NCBI GenBank assembly: GCA_937888775.1
Contig: CALAQT010000445.1
Coordinates: 1-20,427, forward strand
Direction of reading: 5' to 3'
DNA from: an uncultured Actinomycetes bacterium
GTDB taxonomy: Bacteria > Actinomycetota > Thermoleophilia > Solirubrobacterales > Solirubrobacteraceae
DNA length: 20,427 nucleotides
This document shows positions 1 through 19,174 of the stretch, piece by piece (positions within the stretch are counted from its first letter, which is position 1; each line of letters starts with the position of its first letter). Below the pieces are notes generated by a model that was not told the origin of the DNA, did not search any database, and saw nothing but the letters and a program-made list of their open reading frames with translations. Both the position numbers and the translations under genes were made by a program.

Positions 1-243
1 ACCCAACACCCAAGCGGAACGACCCGCCCCGCCCTACTCACTGAAGTAGGTCTGACCAATGTCTGGCCCGATCTACGCCCCGCTGAGCGTCAGCGTCTCT
101 TTGCTTCGGCGATCGATGTCATCTACGTCAGGCGTGGTGCAAAGCGCATCGAGGACCGAGTCAAGATCCTCTGGCGTGGTGAGAACGTCGAGCCCCTGAG
201 TGGTCCTGGTCGCAGCGTCCCGATCAGGACGATGAGCTGGTAG
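1..243 (+). CDS. Large serine integrase, C-terminal fragment (gene enters from the left)
   Basis: Frame 1 is open from the first base to a TAG at 241-243, giving 80 residues with no start, so this is the 3' end of a gene that begins outside the window. The tail has the pattern I associate with actinobacterial large serine recombinases: a Leu/Trp-rich helix (LTNVWPDL), an ERQRLFASAIDVIYVRRG segment, then RIEDRVKILWRGE. In that family this part follows the zinc ribbon and coiled coil of the DNA-binding C-terminus. The enzymes integrate and excise phages and integrative elements at short att sites using an N-terminal catalytic serine, which is not visible here. A strong terminator follows 42 bases after the stop. 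The family call is by recognition of the tail only, because catalytic residues cannot be checked. Confidence 0.72.
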   Translation, partial: TQHPSGTTRPALLTEVGLTNVWPDLRPAERQRLFASAIDVIYVRRGAKRIEDRVKILWRGENVEPLSGPGRSVPIRTMSW

Positions 244-383: not shown

Positions 384-1046
384 ATGAAGCACCGTAGTGA
401 CAATACCTCACCCGATCCATTTGGTGAGAGCCCTCGCGTATATCGTCCCTCGATTGCCAAAGCACTTGGCAATGTCATCCAAGCCGTTGTGCTTGAGCAG
501 ATGCACTATTGGCTCAAGGGTCCTGGTGGCAAAGACCACAATGGTCATCACTGGATATGGAAAGCTCAGGCTGAGCTAGCCGAAGAGTTAGGGATGACTG
601 TCGGTGTCGCTAGGAAAGCGTTGGAGAAACTCCGCGATCAAGGTCTACTAATCTCGACCTCTAATCCTGATCATGCTTGGGATAGGACATTGCTCTGGCG
701 CATCGACCAAGACGCCATGGCGCAGCTAGTGGCCGGAATCCCTCTATCTATGCATTCGTTCCACAGCCCGAATGCATGCGTTCCGCAGAACGCATCGAGT
801 CGTTCTACAGAACGCATCGAGTCGGTCCCTGGAACGTATCGATGCGGCCCACAGGCCGAAGCAATACCAGAGAGTACCTCAGAGAGGCCACACAAAGATC
901 ACGACAACAGGATTACACCAATGGATTACCGCGCGCGGGACCAGGATCAGTCAATGTTGATCTCACCTCGGAAGCTCCTGGCTCGACTTAGAGAAGAGAG
1001 TACTTCAAGGAGTGAAAGTGACCGAACCCTGGAGGTAAGTCTGTAG
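384..1046 (+). CDS. Replication-initiator-like winged-helix protein
   Basis: This encodes 220 aa. The ATG at 384 is chosen over the one at 345 because GGA sits six bases upstream and the homologous-looking part begins after it. Residues about 20-120 follow the layout of N-terminal winged-helix domains of phage and plasmid replication proteins: RPSIAKALGNVIQAVVLEQMHYWL, then a WIWKAQAELAEELG helix, a VARKALEKLRDQGLL recognition region and a WDRTLLWRID strand. The C-terminal 100 residues are polar and low-complexity and contain no enzyme motif, so it would be an origin binder, not a polymerase or helicase. The gene is visibly poorer in GC than the rest of the window, consistent with acquisition. 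The frame also carries DNA-level iterons (759-846), which supports an origin-binding role. The family is recognised by pattern; the exact type is not known. Confidence 0.68.
   Translation: MKHRSDNTSPDPFGESPRVYRPSIAKALGNVIQAVVLEQMHYWLKGPGGKDHNGHHWIWKAQAELAEELGMTVGVARKALEKLRDQGLLISTSNPDHAWDRTLLWRIDQDAMAQLVAGIPLSMHSFHSPNACVPQNASSRSTERIESVPGTYRCGPQAEAIPESTSERPHKDHDNRITPMDYRARDQDQSMLISPRKLLARLREESTSRSESDRTLEVSL
750..777. repeat. Perfect 9-bp inverted repeat beside the iterons
   Basis: ATGCATTCG at 750-758 and CGAATGCAT at 769-777 are perfect inverted arms separated by 10 bases. They lie inside the replication-like gene and overlap the first iteron. The pair could be a hairpin or a dimer-binding site at the edge of an origin. 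Confidence 0.6.
759..846 (+). repeat. Four 22-bp iterons inside the replication-like gene (candidate origin)
   Basis: Units are at 759-780, 781-802, 803-824 and 825-846, each exactly 22 bp. Units 2 and 3 share AGAACGCATCGAGTCG and differ at two positions out of 22. Unit 4 matches unit 2 at 15 of 22 positions and unit 1 at 14. Because 22 is not a multiple of three, the units fall in different reading frames and the encoded protein is not repetitive, so conservation is at DNA level. Iterons embedded in an initiator gene are the arrangement of lambdoid phages (ori inside gene O) and some theta plasmids. That this is an active origin is inference. Confidence 0.7.
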
Positions 1047-1158
1047 GGTTGCTTCACAACCTGGGACACTCCCTCTGTGTGCCCCGGCATGGCCTCTCGG
1101 TGACTTTCCTTGTCGTAGCAGGCGCCCTCGGCGACTAGGGTCACTCAGCAGTGGCCGT

Positions 1159-1182
1159 GAGCAGCCCCTTTGAGGGCAGCTC
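1159..1182 (+). terminator. Weak hairpin downstream of the replication-like gene
   Basis: GAGCAGCCC and GGGCAGCTC can form a 9-bp stem with one A-A mismatch and a six-base loop. It lies 113 bases after the stop codon and has no T tract, so termination is only a possibility. The surrounding 1047-1213 stretch shows no convincing gene. Confidence 0.3.
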
Positions 1183-1213
1183 GACGAAGACGCGCTTGGC
1201 AAACTATTGTGTC

Positions 1214-1253
1214 TGGTTCTGTCACACGTTTAGTACAACAGTATGTAGAACCA
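1214..1253. other. Symmetric 40-bp att-like site
   Basis: TGGTTCT at 1214-1220 and AGAACCA at 1247-1253 are perfect inverted arms. An inner GTT (1228-1230) and AAC (1237-1239) pair shares exactly the same centre, 1233.5, so the central dinucleotide is GT. A 38-50 bp site with outer and inner inverted arms and a short asymmetric core is the form of att sites used by large serine integrases, and an integrase gene ends about 1 kb to the left. Alternatives are an operator or a long-loop hairpin. No second copy was seen in the window. Confidence 0.4.
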
Positions 1254-1276
1254 TTGACTCATTGAAAGGCCAGCCA

Positions 1277-2570
1277 GCTTATGCCGCAGGCAATGAGCCT
1301 CATTGTCCAGACGGACGGTAGATGCCAAACCTGCAAGCGTAACTGTGCCAAACAAAGTCTACGGCACTTTCCGGCAGGTTGCAGCACGTGCAACCCAGTG
1401 GTTCCAGGCAAAATGGTGCGTCTGGCCCGGCAACTGACTTGACCGACCTTTTCGCCGGGTTGGCGTCTAAACGCCGCAAGCAACAGGCGTACTCCCGTGC
1501 GCGCGTGAGAATGGCTGCGGTCGGGGAGGGTCTCCCCAGCTTATGCCGCAGGCAATGAGCCTCATTGTCCAGACGGACGGTAGATGCCAAACCTGCAAGC
1601 GTAACTGTGCCAAACAAAGTCTACGGCACTTTCCGGCAGGTTGCAGCACGTGCAACCCAGTGGTTCCAGGCAAAATGGTGCGTCTGGCCCGGCAACTGAC
1701 TTGACCGACCTTTTCGCCGGGTTGGCGTCTAAACGCCGCAAGCAACAGGCGTACTCCCGTGCGCGCGTGAGAATGGCTGCGGTCGGGGAGGGTCTCCCAA
1801 GCTTATGCTGCGGTTTATGAGCCTCATTTTGAAGACGGACGTAATCACCAAGTGCAAGATGACTTTGTAGAACATCCGGCTTCGTGGCAGGTTGCCGCGT
1901 ACGCAACACCTTAATTGCAGGGCAAATGGTGCTATAAGGGTGTCATGGAGCATGACCGCCTTCTGGCAGCGTGTGTCGTCTGTGCGTCAACAAGCATCGC
2001 CGGACTCCCCTTCGCGCGTGAGAAGGACTTCGGGCGAGAGGGGTCTCCTAGTTTATGCGGCAGGCAATGAGCCTCATTTTCAAGACGGACGCTAAATGCC
2101 TAAAATGACACCTTGACTTTTCAAAACCCGGCACTTTCCGGCAGGTTGCAGCACATGCAATCCAGTGGTTGCAGGCAAAATCGTGCGTCTCGCCCGGCAA
2201 CTGACTTGACCGACCTTTTCGCCGGGTTGGGCGTCTAAACTAAAAGCACCGCCAAAGGTGGCTCTTTGCGCGCGCGCGTGAGAACGTGCCCGGTCGGGGA
2301 GGGTCGCCAAAGTTTATGCGGCAGGCAATGAGCCTCATGGTCCAGACGGACGGTAGATGCCGAACCTGCAAGCGTAACTGTGCCAAACAAAGTCTACGGC
2401 ACTTTCCGGCAGGCTGCAGTACGTGAAATCCAGTGGTTGCAGGCAAAATCGTGCGGCTGGCCCGTCGACTAGGGTGACCGACTTTTGGCCCGCTTGGGCT
2501 TCTAAAGCGCCGCCAGAGGTAGCGGTACTTCCCGTGCGCGCGTGAGGACAGCTCCGGGCGGGGAGGGCCT
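1277..2570. repeat. Tandem array of five ~262-bp non-coding units
   Basis: Units begin at 1277, 1539, 1801, 2051 and 2312, each opening with a (G)YTTATGC box followed by GCAGGCAATGAGCCTCAT or a variant. Spacings are 262, 262, 250 and 261, and the last unit ends near 2570. By direct reading, units 1 and 2 differ at one position. Units 4 and 5 are closely related, and unit 3 is the most diverged. Each unit closes with a CGCGCGTGAG box and a G-rich hairpin. The period is 3n+1, so no reading frame is kept from unit to unit, and the open frames on the minus strand are by-products. I do not recognise the repeat. It could be a structured RNA array, a replication or partition site array, or a packaging or recombination region of the neighbouring element. 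Confidence 0.9.
1377..1395 (+). other. Conserved hairpin in the repeat unit (example from unit 1)
   Basis: GGTTGCA and TGCAACC form a perfect 7-bp stem around a five-base loop. The same hairpin is at 1639-1657 in unit 2. In unit 4 (2144-2162) it is kept with one G-T wobble, in unit 3 (1891-1907) as a 5-bp stem, and in unit 5 it is decayed. Two other hairpins recur: GGCGT/ACGCC (1462-1475 in unit 1) and GGGGAG/CTCCCC (1523-1537 in unit 1, GAGA/TCTC at 2036-2047 in unit 3). Confidence 0.6.
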
Positions 2571-2663
2571 GCTCTCTCAGAAGAGGTCTACCTGGCAAAG
2601 GATCGGAAGCTGGCCTATCGAGTCGCTCTCGAACGTGTTCTCACGCAACGCGATCATGCATAA
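2571..2663 (+). pseudogene. Start-less open frame after the array, possible gene remnant
   Basis: A frame open from inside the last repeat unit to TAA at 2661-2663 ends with a normal-looking helical tail (EEVYLAKDRKLAYRVALERV). It has no ATG, GTG or TTG start in frame. It may be the 3' end of a gene cut off by the repeat array. No family is recognised and it could be chance. The following 2664-2815 shows nothing convincing. Confidence 0.2.
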
Positions 2664-2815
2664 CGAGCTGACTGCGATGTCTAATGTCTAACCATCCTTC
2701 ATTCAGTCGCACGGTTATTGAACCTGACGCTTGACACCGATCGTTTTGAACCACTTGTGGCGCTTTGCCTGACACAAATCACCACGGTTGCTGACGATTG
2801 GGCATGATCCGTGTG

Positions 2816-2868
2816 GCAGGCAACCTAGGCTGGCTTCGCCAGCCCTGGGAGCTTCGCTCCCTACCTGC
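2816..2868. ncRNA. Two-hairpin element enclosed by an outer stem
   Basis: A 7-bp stem GGCTGGC/GCCAGCC (2828-2844) and a 6-bp stem GGGAGC/GCTCCC (2847-2861) stand two bases apart, and each is closed by the same TTC loop. GCAGG (2816-2820) and CCTGC (2864-2868) can close the whole into a three-way junction. The base pairing is seen directly. Whether it is a transcribed RNA, a REP/BIME-like palindromic repeat or part of a leader is unknown. Confidence 0.4.
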
Positions 2869-2901
2869 TCGCGCGCCTGACCCGTGTGTCGCCGTCGGGG
2901 G

Positions 2902-3072
2902 ATGGAGGGCGAGGATGAGGGGCGAGCGCTCTTCAACGTCGAGGATGGCGAGGTTCTCCGCTGGATCGGTCCCGAGACCGACGAGGAGGAGAACTACGTC
3001 CGAGAAGAGCCCCGCAAGGCCCGCGAAGCCTGGCGAGCGTGGGAGCAATCGTTCCGCGAGTCCGATTCTTAG
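2902..3072 (+). CDS. Small acidic hypothetical protein
   Basis: This is a 56-aa frame starting at ATG 2902 (an in-frame GTG at 2884 would add six residues). It is very rich in Glu, Arg and Trp (EEENYVREEPRKAREAWRAW) and probably helical. Third codon positions are strongly G/C-biased, as in the clear genes of this window. A G-run touches the start but there is no well-spaced ribosome site. No family is recognised. It faces the minus-strand operon that ends at 3109. Confidence 0.42.
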   Translation: MEGEDEGRALFNVEDGEVLRWIGPETDEEENYVREEPRKAREAWRAWEQSFRESDS

Positions 3073-3108
3073 CGAGAGTGGCAGCAGTCGCGTACCCGAT
3101 TCGGTAGC

Positions 3109-4806
3109 TCATTGGCACCGGAGGTTTTCGAGGCCGGTCCAGATGCGGCGCGGGATCGCCGGTTGACCGTGACGACTGCGCGGGACTTTGCAACCAGGCT
3201 CGTCGCCCTCTGTGACTATCTGCCAGTGCCGATTGTAGTGAAGAATTGAATAACCACCCGCCTGAAGCTGCGGGCAGCGGCTGTTGGTTGTTGCGAGCGC
3301 CCAGCTACGATCGGTTGTCGAGACGTAGATGGTCTCACAGCGGGCAGGGATCCCGTCAGCTGCCGCGATTTTCGTTCTCTCCTTACTCGTTGGCTCGCGC
3401 CGAGTCATCTTGGGCTTTGGCTTCGGTGCAGGCCTGGGTTTCGGGGCAGGGGGCGGAGCGTTGCTAGCCACGAACTTGCCCTTGACAGTCGCCTGGTTGC
3501 CCACGTTGTCAGTCGTCTGGATCTGCCACGTGTGGTTGCCGAGACTCCACGGGCCAGGAGAGCTGAAGGCGTCGTTGGTCACCAGCGGGGTGCCCGAGTA
3601 CCCCCCGAGATCGTCTACGTCTTGGCCGTCGATCAGGAGCGAAATGCTTGCGACCCCGCTCTCGGCGTCAGCCACCAAGAAGCTCACGGACTGTTGCGGG
3701 CGAATCGTTTGAGGCGACGTCATCACGGCGGTTGGCGGGGTGCCGTCGAGGGTGAGCGTTGTCTGAGCAGTAGTGGTATCCCCGCTTGGATCGGCCGAAG
3801 CCAAGCTCAGCGTATAGAGACCGTCCGGAAGCGACGCACCACCGGAGCCGCGACCGTCCCACGGAATCGATGATGATCCCTCACTGACAGGGAACGTGCC
3901 CAGGCTCCGGACTATCTGGCCAGCGGAATTGGTGACCGTAGCGGTAATAGTCGTAGCGCCGGTTACCGAGAAGCTGGCCGGAAGACCCGTGCCTGGCGCC
4001 ATAAAGGCCTGGCCAAAGGACAAGCCATTAATTGCGACCGGCAACTCCCTGACCGTCAGCGTCCACTGTGCAGGAGGACCACTCTGCGCCACGATTGGAA
4101 GGTCGACGTCTCCCGCTCCAACCGCGCCAAGTGAGTACTCGCCGCTTGACTCGATGATTCCCGAAACGCCGCCGACCGTGATAGCGCCCTGAGTCAAGGT
4201 CGCGTCGAGAACGTACTGGCCCGCCCCCGGCGCTTGAAATGAGAGAAAGCTGCGCGTGCCCGGACTGGTGGCTCCGCTAAAGGTAGCGGGCGCACTCGGT
4301 CGATCAGCCAGGGCCGCATTAACCGACCCAGAGGAACAGTTCATCTCGTCGGTAGGGACAGTCCCGGCCTCAACGGCGCCATATGGAAGCCAACCCGTAT
4401 CGCCCTCCCCGAAACTCAGCCCCCAACCATCGAGGACACCTTGGCTTCCGACAGACTGAAACCAGATCAGCGTGTCGGGATGCGCACTCGACTGCGCCGG
4501 AAACGTGATTTGACGGTCGCTGCAATTGCCGCTCGCGGTGGCAAACGTCGGGGGATCAGCGAGAACCGTACTCGGTAGAAAACACAACAGAAGTAGCGTG
4601 AAGGCGAGCACCCACGTGACTTTCGCGCATCGCCCAGAACTGATCTTCGCCTGATCTCGCAGCGACAATCGCCTCCCACATGCTTTTGATCTCCTAGCCA
4701 TGCCCTCGCTGCCTAGCGGACGCGCTGTCGAAGATAACTGGGCCACGCAGGTCATGCCGTGCGGGCGAGGAAGATGACTGCCGGTACCGGTGGGAGTCGT
4801 GCGCAT
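3109..4806 (-). CDS. Large exported protein with FlgD/Ig-like domains and Cys-containing C-terminal domain
   Basis: This encodes 565 aa. The start at 4806 has AAGGA six bases upstream (minus strand) and lies 33 bases after the upstream gene's stop. An internal ATG at 4701 would give a more usual signal peptide. A hydrophobic stretch (WVLAFTLLLLCFLPSTVLA, residues about 64-82) with a likely cut after VLA indicates export. The middle carries an FlgD-type Ig-like motif (SIPWDGRGSGGASLPDGLYT), followed after TPPTA by a second Ig-like domain ending in DNVGNQATVKGKF. A Pro/Lys-rich linker (PAPKPRPAPKPKPK) leads to a small C-terminal domain with several Cys that I associate with secreted Solirubrobacterales proteins. 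It probably acts at the cell surface; substrate and partner are unknown. Confidence 0.75.
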   Translation of the reverse strand: MRTTPTGTGSHLPRPHGMTCVAQLSSTARPLGSEGMARRSKACGRRLSLRDQAKISSGRCAKVTWVLAFTLLLLCFLPSTVLADPPTFATASGNCSDRQITFPAQSSAHPDTLIWFQSVGSQGVLDGWGLSFGEGDTGWLPYGAVEAGTVPTDEMNCSSGSVNAALADRPSAPATFSGATSPGTRSFLSFQAPGAGQYVLDATLTQGAITVGGVSGIIESSGEYSLGAVGAGDVDLPIVAQSGPPAQWTLTVRELPVAINGLSFGQAFMAPGTGLPASFSVTGATTITATVTNSAGQIVRSLGTFPVSEGSSSIPWDGRGSGGASLPDGLYTLSLASADPSGDTTTAQTTLTLDGTPPTAVMTSPQTIRPQQSVSFLVADAESGVASISLLIDGQDVDDLGGYSGTPLVTNDAFSSPGPWSLGNHTWQIQTTDNVGNQATVKGKFVASNAPPPAPKPRPAPKPKPKMTRREPTSKERTKIAAADGIPARCETIYVSTTDRSWALATTNSRCPQLQAGGYSILHYNRHWQIVTEGDEPGCKVPRSRHGQPAIPRRIWTGLENLRCQ

Positions 4807-5775: not shown

Positions 5776-5788
5776 TGAATGGTAGAAT
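5760..5788 (+). promoter_or_regulatory. Sigma-70-type promoter for the serine recombinase
   Basis: A -35 box TTGAAT (5760-5765) and a -10 box TAGAAT (5783-5788) are separated by exactly 17 bp. Transcription would start near 5795, about 29 bases upstream of the chosen ATG, leaving room for the AGGGGA ribosome site. Confidence 0.6.
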
Positions 5789-5823
5789 ATGCCAGTGTCT
5801 ACAACGAGATCAGGGGAACTAGC

Positions 5824-6600
5824 ATGAACCCGCTCCCCACCCCTGATCCTCGGTGCTGCGTTCTTTACCGCCGTGTCTCGACCGCCGACCAGGCTGACAG
5901 CGGATACGGGCTTGAGGCTCAATCAGATGCCATCGCCGCCTTCGTGAAACGGGAGCGCCTAGTAGTCGTTGGATCATTCGCCGATCCGGGTGTATCGGGA
6001 ACCGTCCCCCTAGAAGATAGGCCCGGCCTCTCGCAGGCGCTCGTCACCGCCATGACCAAGGGAGCGGGAGCGCTTGTTGTTGCTCGTCACGACCGGCTAG
6101 CCCGAGACACCCTCGTTGCTCTGCTGATCGAGCGGAGCTTCGCGGACGCAGGCATCAGGATTCTGTACGCCGACTCAAGCAACGGTGAATCTGACGCCGA
6201 CCGCTTCACTCGCACAGTTCTCCATGCCGCTGCTGAGCAGGCCAAGCGCGATGTTGTGCGCCGCTTGGCAGCGGGACGGAAGGTCAAGGCCGCCAGCAAG
6301 CCGGGCAGCTACCTCGGGGGCCGTCCTCCCTACGGCTACAAAGCCCAGGGGCATGAGCTAGCCATCGACTCCGGTCAAGCGCAGATCGTGCGCCGCATCT
6401 ACAAGCTCGCCCGTGATGGCGCGAGTATCCGGGACATCGCCGCCCTGATTGACGCCGAGGATCCCTCCCGCCGTTGGCACCGCACTGCCGTCGAGCGCAT
6501 CCTCAGACGAGACATCTACATGCGGAAGAGCCCGGACCGCGTCGTGGATCCGCGCCTATGGCATGCAGCACAACGAGCGCTAGACGGCCGCCGTCGATAG
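5824..6600 (+). CDS. Serine recombinase (resolvase/invertase family, mid-length)
   Basis: This encodes 258 aa. The ATG at 5824 has AGGGGA six bases upstream; the open frame extends back to 5779, but that stretch is the promoter. Residues about 11-150 are the catalytic resolvase domain with the nucleophile Ser19 in YRRVSTADQ, a GYGLEAQ motif, DRPGLSQAL, the HDRLARD motif and EQAKRD. Residues about 165-250 match the Recombinase domain (GGRPPYGYK, IVRRIYKLARDGASIRDIAALI). The protein stops there, lacking the zinc ribbon and coiled coil of large serine integrases, which are about twice as long. It is therefore either a compact recombinase or one that has lost its C-terminus. It probably moves or inverts an accessory segment; the target site may be the upstream inverted repeat. 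Confidence 0.85.
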   Translation: MNPLPTPDPRCCVLYRRVSTADQADSGYGLEAQSDAIAAFVKRERLVVVGSFADPGVSGTVPLEDRPGLSQALVTAMTKGAGALVVARHDRLARDTLVALLIERSFADAGIRILYADSSNGESDADRFTRTVLHAAAEQAKRDVVRRLAAGRKVKAASKPGSYLGGRPPYGYKAQGHELAIDSGQAQIVRRIYKLARDGASIRDIAALIDAEDPSRRWHRTAVERILRRDIYMRKSPDRVVDPRLWHAAQRALDGRRR

Positions 6601-8089: not shown

Positions 8090-8470
8090 CGAACCCCTGT
8101 TTGTCTTGCGGCTTCGAGCGCCAACTCGCTGTCGAGGTCGGCGAGTGACTGTCATCTGACCTCCGCGACGGGGCGTCTGTCGGCCCAGATCGACCGACTG
8201 GGTCCACGGCAGCCAAACGATCGAAGGGACCCGTACGGGAACCCGCAGAAAGAGATCCCTACCTGGATCGTTCCATCTGGGGTTGGTACAGAGGTCGGTC
8301 TGATCCTGCGGCAGACAGTTCGGGTGGGAAAGGAAAGCCTCATTGCAATCCTCCGCGCGCGTGACCCTCTGCGTGATAGCGTCGAGTATCTGGAGAGTTT
8401 GTTGTGCGTCGTGGGGATCTACCACCACGAGATGGTTCGCCGTCGTGCTGGCGGTCATCAGATTTCATGA
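8090..8470 (+). other. Open frame and diverged repeat R1 upstream of the first paralogue
   Basis: The 580 bases between 7884 and 8466 contain no certain gene. A frame open from 8090 ends in TGA (8468-8470), overlapping the next gene's ATG as ATGA; its only plausible start is a GTG at 8322 (48 aa). The stretch from about 8215 to the start resembles 10600-10785 before the second paralogue and 11221-11320 after it, sharing blocks such as CGGGAACCCGC, TCCATCTG and GCGGCAGAC. The translated frames of the first two are alike (LILRQT versus LISRQT, then a matching D-L-x-D-x-V spacing), so it may be a decayed coding sequence or a conserved leader. Confidence 0.4.
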
Positions 8471-8940
8471 AGCGGCTAGCTACAGCACTCAGCATCGCTC
8501 TCGCACTTGCAATCCCGGCGGTTGCCAGCGCGACAAGGATGCCAGTGCTAGCAGGCGTTAGCGGGCCGTTGCAAGTGCGGCCCAACATCGTCGATCTCAG
8601 CGCGGACGGCTCCGAACTCTTGGGAGGCGTTACCGGACGGCATCCTCACGAAGACACACCGGGCCACCCGTTTGGCCGACTGCATTGGACGACGTGGAAT
8701 TCGACTGAGGGACGGGCTTGGGGAGCGGAATGGCTCAACAACTGCCGACCCAGTTGTGGTGCGGGCACGTACTACGCCTATAAGGCCACTGTCCACGTCT
8801 ATGATCCCGGCAGGTCTGGTGTGTTCCTGCGCATGACGGTAAAGAGTCGCCGCAGCTTCCGCTATTCCGCCATGTATGTCGGCGGCTACGGCGGCGGATG
8901 GGTTGGGGATAGGCGCTGGTTCTTATCATCGGTCGGCTGA
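8467..8940 (+). CDS. Small secreted protein, paralogue 1
   Basis: This encodes 157 aa. The ATG at 8467 begins a clean signal peptide (MKRLATALSIALALAIPAVASA). The mature part has a conserved core: LGGVTGRHPHEDTPG, WTTWNSTEGRAWGAEW, a two-Cys pair (NNCRPSCG) and ATVHVYDPGRSGVFLRMTV. About three quarters of residues are identical by eye to the protein at 10786, the difference being mainly a longer Gly/Trp tail here. It is likely exported. Function unknown; no catalytic motif is evident. There is no clear ribosome site, but the start overlaps an upstream open frame (ATGA), which would allow coupling. Confidence 0.7.
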   Translation: MKRLATALSIALALAIPAVASATRMPVLAGVSGPLQVRPNIVDLSADGSELLGGVTGRHPHEDTPGHPFGRLHWTTWNSTEGRAWGAEWLNNCRPSCGAGTYYAYKATVHVYDPGRSGVFLRMTVKSRRSFRYSAMYVGGYGGGWVGDRRWFLSSVG

Positions 8941-10785: not shown

Positions 10786-11217
10786 ATGAGGCTGCTAGCT
10801 ATCGCAATCATCACCGCCCTCGCGGTTGCCATCCCGGCGGTCGCTAGCGCGGCAAGAATGCCGATCTCTGCGACTAACGGACCATTGCGAGTTCGGCCTC
10901 GTATCGTGGTCTTCAGCGCGGATGGCTCCAGATTGTTGGGAGGCTTTACTGGACGGCATCCGCACCAGGACACCCCCGGCAACCCATTTGGCCGCTTGCG
11001 CTGGACTACATGGAATTCGACTGAGGGCCGGGCTTGGGGAGCGGAATGGCTTAACAACTGCGAGCCGAGTTGTGCCCAGGGCACATACCATGCCTTCAAG
11101 GCGACGGTCCACGTCTATGACCCAGGCAGGACCGGGGTGTTTCTGCGTATGACCGTCAAGAGCCATATGAGCTTCACGTACTCGGCTTTCTATGAGGATG
11201 GCGGATGGGGTTGGTGA
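10786..11217 (+). CDS. Small secreted protein, paralogue 2
   Basis: This encodes 143 aa and is the close paralogue of the protein at 8467, with the same signal-peptide style (MRLLAIAIITALAVAIPAVASA) and the same core (GGFTGRHPHQDTPG, TTWNSTEGRAWGAEWLNN, CEPSC, ATVHVYDPGRTGVFLRMTV). The tail is shorter and ends in EDGGWGW. The invariant Trp, the His in GRHPH and the Cys pair suggest a folded exported domain under purifying selection. Function unknown. Both paralogues lie in the same orientation about 2.3 kb apart. Confidence 0.72.
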   Translation: MRLLAIAIITALAVAIPAVASAARMPISATNGPLRVRPRIVVFSADGSRLLGGFTGRHPHQDTPGNPFGRLRWTTWNSTEGRAWGAEWLNNCEPSCAQGTYHAFKATVHVYDPGRTGVFLRMTVKSHMSFTYSAFYEDGGWGW

Positions 11218-15504: not shown

Positions 15505-16654
15505 CGCCTCCAACAAGGCGTGCAAGCGCAGCAGCGAACACAGCGGCGGTTCGCATAGACACCTCGCGCTCAGCGGCTTCCTTTGCATCCATAGCGCTCA
15601 CCGCTTCGCAGAGCAATTCCTGCTTATCGAGCGAGGGAACAGGTATCTCTACCGCATCGACGTTGTGCTTGTTGAGTTGCGGAACTGGCGTGTCGTCTTG
15701 CAGCGACCGCAGATCGAAACCTTCAAAGAACGCCAAGAGATACCGGGGCAGCAAGACCGCGCTCGGCTCGATCCCTATGAGGTTTGGATCCAGAGCAGCA
15801 GGTCTGCCGATCATGCGCTTTACGTTCTTTCCGATTGCTGCGCCCCGCTTGGGGAAGACAGTCGCGCCCACAGCGAGTGGACGAGCGATGGGCTTGAATA
15901 CCTCCGCCGAAGCGCCAACAACAGGTGCTGGATCGCGCCCAATGTCCGATACCTTCAGGTAAAGCATGTGGTCGGGATCCGCTCTGACGGTTGGCACCAG
16001 CTTTCCGTATGGGGGGAACGAAGTACGGACATTGGCGACCTCGCCGATTGGGTTCTTCTTGCCAGCCAGATCGGTAAACGCTCGATTGAGAAACGCCCTC
16101 TTGACATCGCTGGCCATCGCGAGAACCCGCTCATTTGTCACTTGCGCGTCCTGAATCGTTGCCATTACCTGCGAGATGCGGCGCTGCTCGTCCAGTGGTG
16201 GAAGAGGAACCTCCAACTGTTCGAAGTTGCTCTTGTTGACGATCTTCACAGTCACGCCCCCCGCAACACGCTCAAGCTCAGCCCGCTGGGTCATCATCGC
16301 GTAGTACATGAACTCCGGCCCTACCGTGTCTTTCGGGATGATCGCGTTGATCTGTTGGTTGGTCGTGGTCTGCTCTGCGGCTGTCAGCCCCACCTTTCCA
16401 AGGGTCCCGATGCAAGACACAAGGACGCAGCCGGGAGGCAGCGCACGCGAAACCGCCAGTCCCTCAGGCGTAAGGGACTGCGCTGCGTTGGTTATCCACT
16501 TGGTTCCATCTAGGTCAGGAGGAGTGACAAACGGGATCGTGCCGCCGTAATACTCCCGGCGACTTGTTGCCGGAGTCGTACCCGTCACGATCGTGCCGAT
16601 TTCCTTGAGCCGGACCCTGGGCCAAGTCTTCGGGTGATGCCGAGGGGTTCTCAA
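15485..16654 (-). CDS. hsdS: Type I restriction system, specificity subunit
   Basis: This encodes 389 aa. Its ATG overlaps the hsdM stop as ATGA. Two target-recognition domains are visible: residues ~12-150 (VRLKEIGTIVTGTTP, IPFVTPPDL, GTLGKVGLT, NQQINAI) and ~200-340 (DHMLYLKVSDIG, PKRGAAIGKNVKR, LDPNLIGI). Each is followed by a conserved spacer helix, PLPPLDEQRRISQVM and PVPSLDKQELLCEAV. This is the standard HsdS plan, in which each TRD reads half of a bipartite site and HsdM methylates it. The sequence recognised cannot be predicted from here. Confidence 0.93.
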   Translation of the reverse strand: MRTPRHHPKTWPRVRLKEIGTIVTGTTPATSRREYYGGTIPFVTPPDLDGTKWITNAAQSLTPEGLAVSRALPPGCVLVSCIGTLGKVGLTAAEQTTTNQQINAIIPKDTVGPEFMYYAMMTQRAELERVAGGVTVKIVNKSNFEQLEVPLPPLDEQRRISQVMATIQDAQVTNERVLAMASDVKRAFLNRAFTDLAGKKNPIGEVANVRTSFPPYGKLVPTVRADPDHMLYLKVSDIGRDPAPVVGASAEVFKPIARPLAVGATVFPKRGAAIGKNVKRMIGRPAALDPNLIGIEPSAVLLPRYLLAFFEGFDLRSLQDDTPVPQLNKHNVDAVEIPVPSLDKQELLCEAVSAMDAKEAAEREVSMRTAAVFAAALARLVGGDGDSRL

Positions 16655-18234
16655 GGGATGCGTAGGATCGCCAGGACCTTCCGCAGTTCGGCATCGGCGT
16701 GGCCACGCGCAGCTTCCGCCTCATGGAGAAGACGAACGGCTTCCTCAAGAGTTGGCACGTCATTCGGCGAAGGCGGGCGGACGTACCTGCTCGGGGATAG
16801 GTTGTAGTCATTATCCGCAACCTGAGCAGTCGTCACTGTGATGGACAGCCCCGCACGGCTTTCCCAATCCACAATCAACTGATGGACAAGTGCAATGTCA
16901 TCATCGGTCATTTCGTTCTTCGGACGACGCTTGACAAAGCGTCCTGCCGCATTGACGAGCACGACCTCGGTGTGATGCCGCTTCCGCTTGTTCAGCAGCA
17001 TGATGATGCCGGGCGCTGGCGTGTTGTAGAACATATTTTCAGGGAGTTGGATCACCGCCTCAACGAGGTCCGCCTCGACAAACGCCTTTCGGATATCACG
17101 CTCCCGACTCGCTCCGACGTTGCCACTGCCGCGACTCAGGGCTCCCGTGTCAAGGACTATTGCCATCCGGCCTGATGAAGTAAGTGAGGTGAACATATGC
17201 TGAACCCAACCCCAGTCAGCGGATGACGCCGTTGGGATCCCATTGTCAAAGCGACCCGTGGTGTCGTTCTTGTACATCTCGTCGGGGAAGTCCTGGTTCC
17301 ACATCGGATTGGCGGTCACGATGTCGAACTGCCGGAGCTTGCCGTCCCGCCCTGTGAACGCTGGCGAACGCATCGTGTCGCCCAAAGCGATCTCGGCATC
17401 CATGTCGTGGAGGAATGCGTTCATGCGCGACATCGCGAACGTAGAAGGATTGATCTCTTGCCCGAATAGACGAAGCGGAGCCACGTCCTTCGGAAGCTCC
17501 GAATGCTCATTGAGCTTGACCCCATGGGTTTCACGGAGTCGGAGGTGGCACTTGATGAGAAGCCCTGCCGATCCACACGCGGGGTCGTAGACCGTCATGC
17601 CCGGCTGAGGATCGAGGATGCGAGCCATGAGCCGGGCGACCTGTGGCGGTGTGTAGAACTCCCCGGCGCTCTGTCCCTGACCTTCAGCGAACTTCCGGAT
17701 TAGGTATTCGTACGCACGACCAAGAAGGTCGGGTTGAACGTCGGTTAGCCCAAGGCGATGCTGGCCAAGTGTCTTGACGAGTGCTGCCAGCCTGCTGTTA
17801 TCGACAATCGGTTGCCCCGCTGTGGTGGCGTTGAAGTCAACGGTGTCGATGACGCCTTGGAGGCGAGGGTTCTGCCGGGAGACCGAGCGAACTGCGTCCG
17901 TAAGGATCTCGCCGAGCCCGGTGGTCTTGGCGGCGATGAACGACCAGCGACTCTCGGCTGGAACATAGAACCGGACGAGTGCGTGGTCCTGGTCGATGAT
18001 GGTCTCAGCAGTCTTGCGATCGCCTACCTCGTCAGCGACTCGCTGGACCTCATCATCGAACACGTGGGAGAGGCGCTTCAGAAAGACCAGCGGGAGGATG
18101 TAGTCCTTGAACTTTGGGGCATCCAGTGGCCCCCGGATCTGGCAGGCGGCATCCCAAAGCCAGCCTTCGAGGGTCTTGAGGTCTAGGTCCCGTGGCTGAG
18201 CGCCCCCGTTTGAGTCCGTCTTCCGCCGTGCCAT
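16651..18234 (-). CDS. hsdM: Type I restriction system, DNA adenine methyltransferase subunit
   Basis: This encodes 527 aa. The N-terminal helical domain (~15-170, TLEGWLWDAACQIRG, KDYILPLVFLKRLS) precedes the methylase fold with GEFYTPPQVA (191-200), the AdoMet-binding motif DPACGSAGLL (217-226) and motif IV NPMW (309-312). Motif IV departs from the usual N-P-P-F/Y; this NPMW variant is known to me in one HsdM branch, so activity is still expected. The enzyme makes N6-methyladenine at the site chosen by HsdS. It is the first gene of hsdM-hsdS-hsdR-peptidase, all linked by overlaps. No strong ribosome site precedes the ATG. Confidence 0.94.
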   Translation of the reverse strand: MARRKTDSNGGAQPRDLDLKTLEGWLWDAACQIRGPLDAPKFKDYILPLVFLKRLSHVFDDEVQRVADEVGDRKTAETIIDQDHALVRFYVPAESRWSFIAAKTTGLGEILTDAVRSVSRQNPRLQGVIDTVDFNATTAGQPIVDNSRLAALVKTLGQHRLGLTDVQPDLLGRAYEYLIRKFAEGQGQSAGEFYTPPQVARLMARILDPQPGMTVYDPACGSAGLLIKCHLRLRETHGVKLNEHSELPKDVAPLRLFGQEINPSTFAMSRMNAFLHDMDAEIALGDTMRSPAFTGRDGKLRQFDIVTANPMWNQDFPDEMYKNDTTGRFDNGIPTASSADWGWVQHMFTSLTSSGRMAIVLDTGALSRGSGNVGASRERDIRKAFVEADLVEAVIQLPENMFYNTPAPGIIMLLNKRKRHHTEVVLVNAAGRFVKRRPKNEMTDDDIALVHQLIVDWESRAGLSITVTTAQVADNDYNLSPSRYVRPPSPNDVPTLEEAVRLLHEAEAARGHADAELRKVLAILRIP

Positions 18235-18604
18235 CCCGCGTCAGAGTATGCGACGGAGCACGGCTGGACACGTCCGAGAACCCCCCGATGTAGAGATGCA
18301 GGGAGTCGGCGATCGTGTTCGGGTCGTCGAGAAGCTTGGTGAAGGTCAGCGGGCTCGTGTTATAGAACTGCTGGCCCGCCACCGCCTGGAGAACCGGCTC
18401 AAGGTTCTCGATCCTGCCCGCAAGCTGCTGCTGCCTCTCCAGAACTGCCTGCTTGGTCGGCTCAAGGACGCAATCCAAGCGGCGAATGACCGTGAGCGGG
18501 AGGACCACCTTGCCGTACTCGGACTGCTTGTACTCCCCGCGCAGAAGGTCAGCCACGCTCCAGATGAAGGCCGCGTGATTCCTGATCGTCTCACTATCGG
18601 CCAC
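18053..18604 (-). pseudogene. Truncated second HsdM, N-terminal domain only
   Basis: From GTG 18604 (GGGG seven bases upstream) the first ~110 residues are a good HsdM N-terminal domain of another subfamily: AAFIWSVADLLRGEYKQSEY, VVLPLTVIRRLDCVLEPTK, NTSPLTFTKLLDDP and SLHLYIGGFS. Homology stops near 18275. The remaining ~73 codons run into the intact hsdM in another frame and look like nonsense. The methylase fold and catalytic motifs are missing. It is the leftover of an older type I system cut by the arrival of the present operon, or a free regulatory N-domain; I favour the first. Confidence 0.72.
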
Positions 18605-18775: not shown

Positions 18776-19174
18776 TCATTCGCAAGCCTCCTGAACTCGG
18801 TCGCCAGCAGGCTCCGCGTTCAGGGATTCAGTCAGCTTTTCCTCGGCGTCGGAGAAGGCGTCGAGAGCCCCTCTGAGGTCTGCCGGATCCTCCTGCGAGA
18901 CGGCTGCGTTCAGGACGACCAGCGCGGCACGGACTCGCCCCCACGCATTGACGCTCTCCTCCGAAGCCTGACGCTCTGCCTCCACGGCGACGCTCGAAGC
19001 AGATGTTTCGCCCGCAGCGATGAAGCGATCAAGCTCCGACTGGCGTACGCGGATTCGTCGAGCACCGATTCGAACCGCAGCCAACTCTCCCCGGTCGATC
19101 CAATTCCGAACGGTCTGCTGGTTCACCCTGAGCCGCTCCGCGATCTCGGCAACCGTGAGGAACTGGTCTTCCAT
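18776..19174 (-). CDS. Excisionase/MerR-type helix-turn-helix protein
   Basis: This encodes 132 aa from ATG 19174. Residues ~5-55 are an excisionase-type winged HTH (FLTVAEIAERLRVNQQTVRNWI then GELAAVRIG and RIRVRQSELDRFI). The rest is an Ala/Glu-rich helical tail (~65-125) that may dimerise. Proteins of this type act as recombination directionality factors or small repressors. It is the nearest complete gene upstream of the restriction operon on the same strand (170 bases from the truncated hsdM), so it could control that operon or its own. No ribosome site precedes the start; a TAGCAT box eight bases away hints at a leaderless mRNA. Confidence 0.7.
   Translation of the reverse strand: MEDQFLTVAEIAERLRVNQQTVRNWIDRGELAAVRIGARRIRVRQSELDRFIAAGETSASSVAVEAERQASEESVNAWGRVRAALVVLNAAVSQEDPADLRGALDAFSDAEEKLTESLNAEPAGDRVQEACE

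Follow-up and report, generated by a model that had tools for sequence, protein, structure and literature searches.

A tandem array of five ~262-bp units beside a lambda-O-like initiator gene, tentatively read as cis-acting repeats of a mobile element

What is an array of five long tandem repeats, each more than ten times the length of the 22-bp repeats nearby, doing next to a gene for a putative replication initiator? This question was addressed in a window of 20,427 nucleotides (the whole stretch of DNA that was analysed). The preliminary description had reported a five-unit tandem array with a period of ~262 bp, and the array proved to be real. TRF detected five head-to-tail units at 1276-2567 (period 262, 5.0 copies, score 1324), and the unit boundaries are as follows.

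1277..1538, plus strand, array unit 1 (262 bp), one base apart from unit 2
1539..1800, plus strand, array unit 2 (262 bp)
1801..2050, plus strand, array unit 3 (250 bp), the most diverged, 63.5-68.4% identical to the others
2051..2311, plus strand, array unit 4 (261 bp)
2312..2570, plus strand, array unit 5 (259 bp)

The start-to-start spacings of the units are 262, 262, 250, and 261 bp. A period of 3n+1, as had been proposed, therefore holds for the spacings of 262 and 250 but not for that of 261. Units 1 and 2 had been called virtually identical and unit 3 strongly diverged. Both statements were borne out, since units 1 and 2 match at 261 of 262 positions and unit 3 is only 63.5-68.4% identical to every other unit. 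The remaining pairs are intermediate (unit 1 and unit 5, 84%; unit 1 and unit 4, 80%; unit 4 and unit 5, 76%), and 116 of the 271 columns of the five-unit alignment are invariant. A sequence-only model of the unit, run over the whole window with filters off, matched 1277-1536, 1539-1799, 1801-2049, 2051-2310, and 2312-2572. These five matches scored 174 to 241 bits, values that are high by construction because the model was built from the same units; the next match in the window scored 6.8 bits. A decayed sixth unit was sought in both flanks, and none was clear among 16 flank-to-unit comparisons, the strongest of which (unit 4 against 2571-2830) was equalled in 3 of 200 shuffles.

The longest run that is invariant in all five units, ATGAGCCTCAT (alignment columns 17-27), is exactly a perfect 11-bp dyad, ATGAGcCTCAT, whose 5-bp arms flank a single central base. 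Columns to either side of the run vary. The dyad is located as follows.

1293..1303, unstranded, dyad of unit 1 (ATGAGcCTCAT, invariant across the five units)
1555..1565, unstranded, dyad of unit 2 (invariant 11-bp run)
1817..1827, unstranded, dyad of unit 3 (invariant 11-bp run)
2067..2077, unstranded, dyad of unit 4 (invariant 11-bp run)
2328..2338, unstranded, dyad of unit 5 (invariant 11-bp run)

An invariant run of this length was obtained in 50 of 5000 column shuffles, a test based on four distinct sequences. Of the 20,417 positions in the window, 25 are starts of perfect odd 11-bp dyads, and those within the array are the five unit dyads; these counts describe the array rather than test it because the dyad had been seen before counting. 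The dyad is intact in unit 3 despite the low overall identity of this unit. The longest runs that unit 3 has in common with units 1, 4, and 5 (12, 14, and 11 columns, respectively) all start at column 17 and include the dyad. Successive dyads are separated by 262, 262, 250, and 261 bp, corresponding to about 24-25 helical turns. Two observations on the same alignment argue against a role of the dyads as cis-acting sites: the 250-bp spacing corresponds to 23.81 helical turns, which is not a whole number, and no dyad is formed by the two further invariant runs of 10 and 9 columns, CGCGCGTGAG and AGACGGACG. Gene conversion can also produce runs of invariant sites. A second dyad, GTTGC-N7-GCAAC, is kept in units 1, 2, and 3, has one changed arm base in unit 4, and is lost in unit 5.

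A replication-like gene had been placed upstream from the array, and the comparison with PHROGs agreed with this assignment. The encoded protein matched a DnaD-like helicase loader (phrog_6493, E 5e-16) and an O-like replication initiation protein (phrog_9773, E 1.6e-12). The gene and the repeats that it contains are located as follows.

384..1046, plus strand, gene for a DnaD-like / lambda-O-like replication initiation protein (PHROGs; 220 residues from the ATG at 384)
750..859, unstranded, five direct repeats of 22 bp within the initiator gene (period match), candidate iterons of a lambda-type origin

Searches by tblastn with the initiator returned weak matches, all of them below 60% identity, in phage records (41) and plasmid records (45); at E up to 0.01, only three additional matches were present in the protein database; and none of 58 pattern matches in IMG/VR was confirmed. 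Within the gene, 62 of 88 positions at 750-859 match at period 22, versus a maximum of 41 in 200 shuffled sequences examined at periods 15-30. These iteron-like repeats, which were absent from the entry of the preliminary description, carry partial dyads. They occur in codon phases 0, 1, 2, 0, and 1, indicating that DNA rather than protein is repeated. The segment at 750-859 provides the short direct repeats within an O-like initiator gene that characterize a lambda-type origin. However, no AT-rich tract was clear beside the repeats, the AT content of 40-bp segments across 864-1063 being 0.45-0.55, and this speaks against complete agreement with an origin of this type. A homologue of the initiator, P0002 (184 residues), maps to 384-770 and then to 793-942: it skips exactly 22 bases (771-792) and continues in another frame. 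This gap reflects either variation in the copy number of the repeat or an assembly error.

The explanation that we prefer, although we hold it with less than even confidence, is that the array consists of cis-acting, putatively protein-binding repeats that belong to the replication or maintenance module of a mobile element and were enlarged by in-register recombination. Several observations argue for this explanation: the longest invariant run coincides exactly with a dyad that is intact even in unit 3, an O-like initiator gene with its own 22-bp repeats adjoins the array, neither an RNA structure nor a shared reading frame is supported, and unit 1 has the make-up of a mosaic (see below). The mobile element is probably integrated. 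By analogy with phage lambda, the initiator and its 22-bp repeats would start replication. A putative dimeric DNA-binding protein would bind the dyad of every 262-bp unit, and such repeated sites might then act in copy-number control, in partition, or in pairing of the element. The number of units would change by in-register unequal crossing-over, units 1 and 2 being the putative product of a recent duplication and unit 1 a mosaic. Both the binding protein and the role in copy control or partition are inferred. Against the cis-acting explanation, no second locus with such an array beside a replication gene was shown in the collections searched, and a Pfam scan of 20 translations from the window revealed no ParA/ParB-type gene, though part of the element may lie beyond the left end of the window. 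It is doubtful that the locus represents a new kind of cis-acting array, in which 262-bp modules built round an invariant dyad would form a platform for copy control or partition of a lambda-O-type element, with a copy number set by recombination.

Almost as likely as the cis-acting explanation is a tandem duplication devoid of function, in which a chance duplication of 262 bp was enlarged and homogenised by homologous recombination in the absence of any selection. The history of the array is compatible with such a process. A recent duplication had been proposed, in agreement with the single difference between units 1 and 2 over 262 bases. Gene conversion had also been proposed, and unit 1 is indeed a mosaic that resembles unit 5 on the left and unit 4 at about columns 103-163. 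This split was equalled in 25 of 2000 shuffles and is consistent with conversion or with unequal crossing-over. Together, the pair formed by units 1 and 2, the mosaic unit 1, and the whole copy number fit in-register unequal crossing-over or conversion. A copy number of 5.0, two near-identical units, and a mosaic unit are the expected outcome of in-register recombination, and the indels that are not multiples of three and the very diverged unit 3 also favor a duplication without function, as does the lack of terminal inverted repeats. For the latter, the terminal 40 bases of the unit were compared with their reverse complement, and the score was reached by 84 (unit 1), 488 (unit 3), 365 (unit 4), and 396 (unit 5) of 500 shuffles. 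An insertion sequence or a MITE was rejected on the basis of this absence in units 1, 3, 4, and 5. The argument against a functionless duplication is the dyad itself, since it coincides exactly with the longest invariant stretch, and a run of this length was reached in 50 of 5000 column shuffles. The array had been presented as the best candidate for an undescribed element. This view stands as far as the class is concerned, which remains unassigned with no Rfam match and no CRISPR layout, but not for functional status, since ordinary recombination could generate a similar array.

The lack of relatives in the collections searched also favors a duplication devoid of function. The preliminary description had proposed a nucleotide search of one unit, and no relatives were found in phages, plasmids, IMG/VR patterns, or sampled GTDB genomes. 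Unit 1 gave no blastn match to phages and plasmids at E up to 1. The segment 250-3110 gave none to plasmids and, to phages, a single 25-base match (Synechococcus phage) at 281-305, outside the array. Exact-pattern scans of IMG/VR with conserved blocks returned 0 matches in all but one scan. The two matches obtained in that scan, L105 and L106, had equal scores and the same relative layout, apparently corresponding to one stretch present in two contigs; they scored 5 bits with the unit model and were judged to be due to chance. TRF, applied to L105 only, found no long-period array. One exact 20-base pattern had 0 matches in GTDB contigs. Local blastn of units 1, 3, 4, and 5 against 80 HsdM loci gave a best E of 0.21, and unit 2 gave a best E of 0.235 in three genomes.

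The unit model was also compared with whole GTDB genomes, in partial and overlapping samples, with stricter filters and five or six candidates scored per genome. At E<=0.01, 7 of 301 and 8 of 396 genomes had matches, and at E<=0.001 a single genome of 399 did, for chance expectations of about 3, 4, and 0.4, respectively, according to per-genome E-values. The excess, about two-fold, is within the roughness of these E-values and near the chance level. The best genome match had an E-value of 1.6e-4 (21.8 bits). None of 16 loci from the samples of 301 and 396 genomes had a similar array, and only one of them (L087) held a tandem array with a period above 60, in this case 65 bp. Units 2 to 5 had 0 blastn matches in 399 genomes of one class, an empty answer that shows nothing since there was no known positive; the class, which may not be that of the host, had been picked via the best of the 7 genomes, among 198, that matched a secreted-type protein of the window. 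In the titles and abstract openings of the papers listed, no array of this kind was described.

It is improbable that the array arose as tandem copies of a small protein gene that later decayed, although several local signals point in this direction. In columns 85-170, substitutions favor one codon position (10 of 13 between units 4 and 5, and 5 of 6 between units 1 and 4), a bias that is unexplained. Some pairs also exceeded random substitution when tested frame by frame. The observed score was reached by 0 of 1000 random-substitution simulations for units 1 and 4 in columns 85-170 (minus strand, frame 2), by 10 of 1000 for units 4 and 5 in the same columns (plus strand, frame 1), and by 10 of 1000 for units 1 and 4 in columns 1-77 (plus strand, frame 0). 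Finally, a local codon-like GC skew, also unexplained, is present around 1740-1860; the 120 bases that begin at 1800, for instance, give 0.35/0.72/0.38. However, the winning frame and strand vary with the pair and the segment in what amounts to dozens of dependent tests, and there is no consistent codon GC periodicity over the whole array. The 53- and 105-residue translations had no homologue in a search of 5.8 billion proteins. None of the array translations matched Pfam below E 0.1 or plasmids at better than E 6, and the 53-residue translation had no confirmed relative in IMG/VR. Protein readings of the minus strand and of the plus strand were both rejected, as the array translations had no homologues in the databases searched. 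The 53-codon plus-strand frame, which contains five cysteines, is kept in units 1 and 2, is interrupted by a stop codon in unit 5, and is shifted in units 3 and 4. No reading frame is kept through all units, which differ by indels of 1, 2, and 7 bases in addition to indels of 3 and 9 bases. The units had been described as non-coding. The absence of a common frame and the non-triplet indels support this description, whereas the codon-position bias and the GC skew detract from it. We conclude that the array is non-coding now, with a small probability of a decayed coding origin.

Equally improbable is the possibility that the units are tandem genes for a structured non-coding RNA of ~240 nt. In each of the five units, the two ends can pair with each other (columns 2-11 with 234-242), and 6 of the 68 predicted pairs are changed on both sides. 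In addition, the consensus-structure z-score relative to column-shuffled alignments is -1.18 on the plus strand (0.21 on the minus strand) when unit 3 is omitted. With all four distinct units, however, folding is no better than that of the column-shuffled controls on either strand (z-scores of 0.14 for the plus strand and 0.59 for the minus strand), and the covariation term is a penalty (+5.44 kcal/mol). Minimum free energy z-scores of single units on the plus strand are also unremarkable (unit 2, -1.13; unit 3, -0.82; unit 4, -0.51; unit 5, -0.02), as is that of unit 2 on the minus strand (-0.47). A match to a known Rfam family had been regarded as a possible refutation of novelty, and Rfam 15 gave 0 matches in the window at gathering scores. 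At E up to 5, nothing was found in the array, and the only match within 1000-3110 was RsmV at 1001-1149 (20 bits for a gathering score of 100). Since four distinct sequences are available, these results are weak evidence against an RNA structure rather than proof.

An assembly artefact, in which the copy number, above all the pair formed by units 1 and 2, was created or collapsed by metagenome assembly, is very improbable for the array as a whole: units 1 and 2 are one base apart over 262 bases, which exceeds a typical short read, and could be an assembly duplicate, and the second product of the upstream initiator gene differs by one 22-bp repeat, but units 3, 4, and 5 differ by 16-37% from unit 1 and from one another, are by this measure too dissimilar to be assembly duplicates, and call for a genuine array with four or more distinct units.

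The window appears to be a metagenome contig (the initiator is listed with five contigs, the longest of 23,911 bases), and its remainder contains additional features. The 3' end of an ORF at 1-243, which we take to resemble the end of a large serine recombinase, had no Pfam or PHROG match. Directly after the array, a plus-strand frame at 2571-2660 ends in SEEVYLAKDRKLAYRVALERVLTQRDHA and may represent the 3' portion of a gene that was cut by the array. This frame had no Pfam match and only a weak match, at E 0.9, to two records of one phage; codon-like GC periodicity is clear at about 2550-2680, mostly past the array. Two adjacent perfect hairpins, GGCTGGCTTCGCCAGCC and GGGAGCTTCGCTCCC, are present at 2828-2861. 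Further downstream, the window encodes an Ig-like-domain protein and a serine recombinase (5779-6600) and, at ~12.6-18.6 kb, a type I restriction-modification set. Two paralogous secreted-type proteins, encoded at 8404-8940 and 10786-11217, are located ~2.3 kb apart; their DNA is 78% and 79% identical in blocks of 300 and 107 bp, and neither protein had a Pfam match. The HsdM N-terminal domain is matched by each of two overlapping ORFs, 18053-18604 and 16651-18234, which lie in different frames, as though the start of hsdM had been duplicated. The first three relatives of HsdM among the matches listed belong to Dormiibacterota (76%), Acidimicrobiaceae (73%), and Chloroflexi (68%). Given these relatives and the apparent metagenomic source of the window, an actinobacterial origin is at most putative. 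An HTH protein encoded at 18776-19174, just upstream from the type I restriction-modification genes, matched PADLOC mad1 (E 1.1e-12) and PHROG excisionases.

Should the array function in replication or segregation, it would constitute a repeat platform whose unit is more than 10 times longer than the adjoining 22-bp repeats. This would raise the question of how two sets of repeats share labour beside an origin-like gene that has its own iterons. The close homologue of the initiator that lacks one 22-bp repeat may represent a natural change in repeat copy number, if it is not due to an assembly error. If the array is devoid of function, it would be an instructive case of recombination alone yielding a striking-looking structure.

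Comparison with known systems did not assign the array to any of the families tested, and nothing in it requires a new principle. CRISPR arrays and type III antitoxin repeats are direct repeats in a largely non-coding region, and so is the array, but its units are 250-262 bp long and show no alternation of repeats and spacers. The short near-identical repeats and unique spacers of CRISPR arrays are replaced here by contiguous homologues of 250-262 bp, in agreement with the earlier exclusion of this class. Iterons have repeat units of about 17-22 bp, and the size of the array unit likewise upholds the view that the array does not consist of ordinary iterons.

Extrachromosomal mycobacterial prophages provide a second comparison. 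Miko and Rachaly are reported to harbor a parS locus with five direct repeats directly downstream of repA, and the parS repeats of RedRock are copies of an 8-bp motif accompanied by parA and parB (PMC7157519). The array resembles the parS loci of RedRock and Miko in that repeated DNA sites adjoin a replication gene, but differs from that of RedRock by a unit of 262 bp instead of an 8-bp motif. The same paper describes non-RepA mycobacterial prophages in which the origin region expresses a non-coding RNA and no repA-like gene was found (PMC7157519). A non-coding region within a phage replication module is common to both cases, whereas an initiator-like gene is present here and an RNA structure is unsupported. 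The last comparison is with the origin of phage lambda, in which O-binding iterons are located within the O gene. Although this likeness concerns the 22-bp repeats at 750-859 rather than the 262-bp array, and no clear AT-rich tract follows these repeats, the locus shares with phage lambda an O/DnaD-like gene that carries its own direct repeats, five in number.
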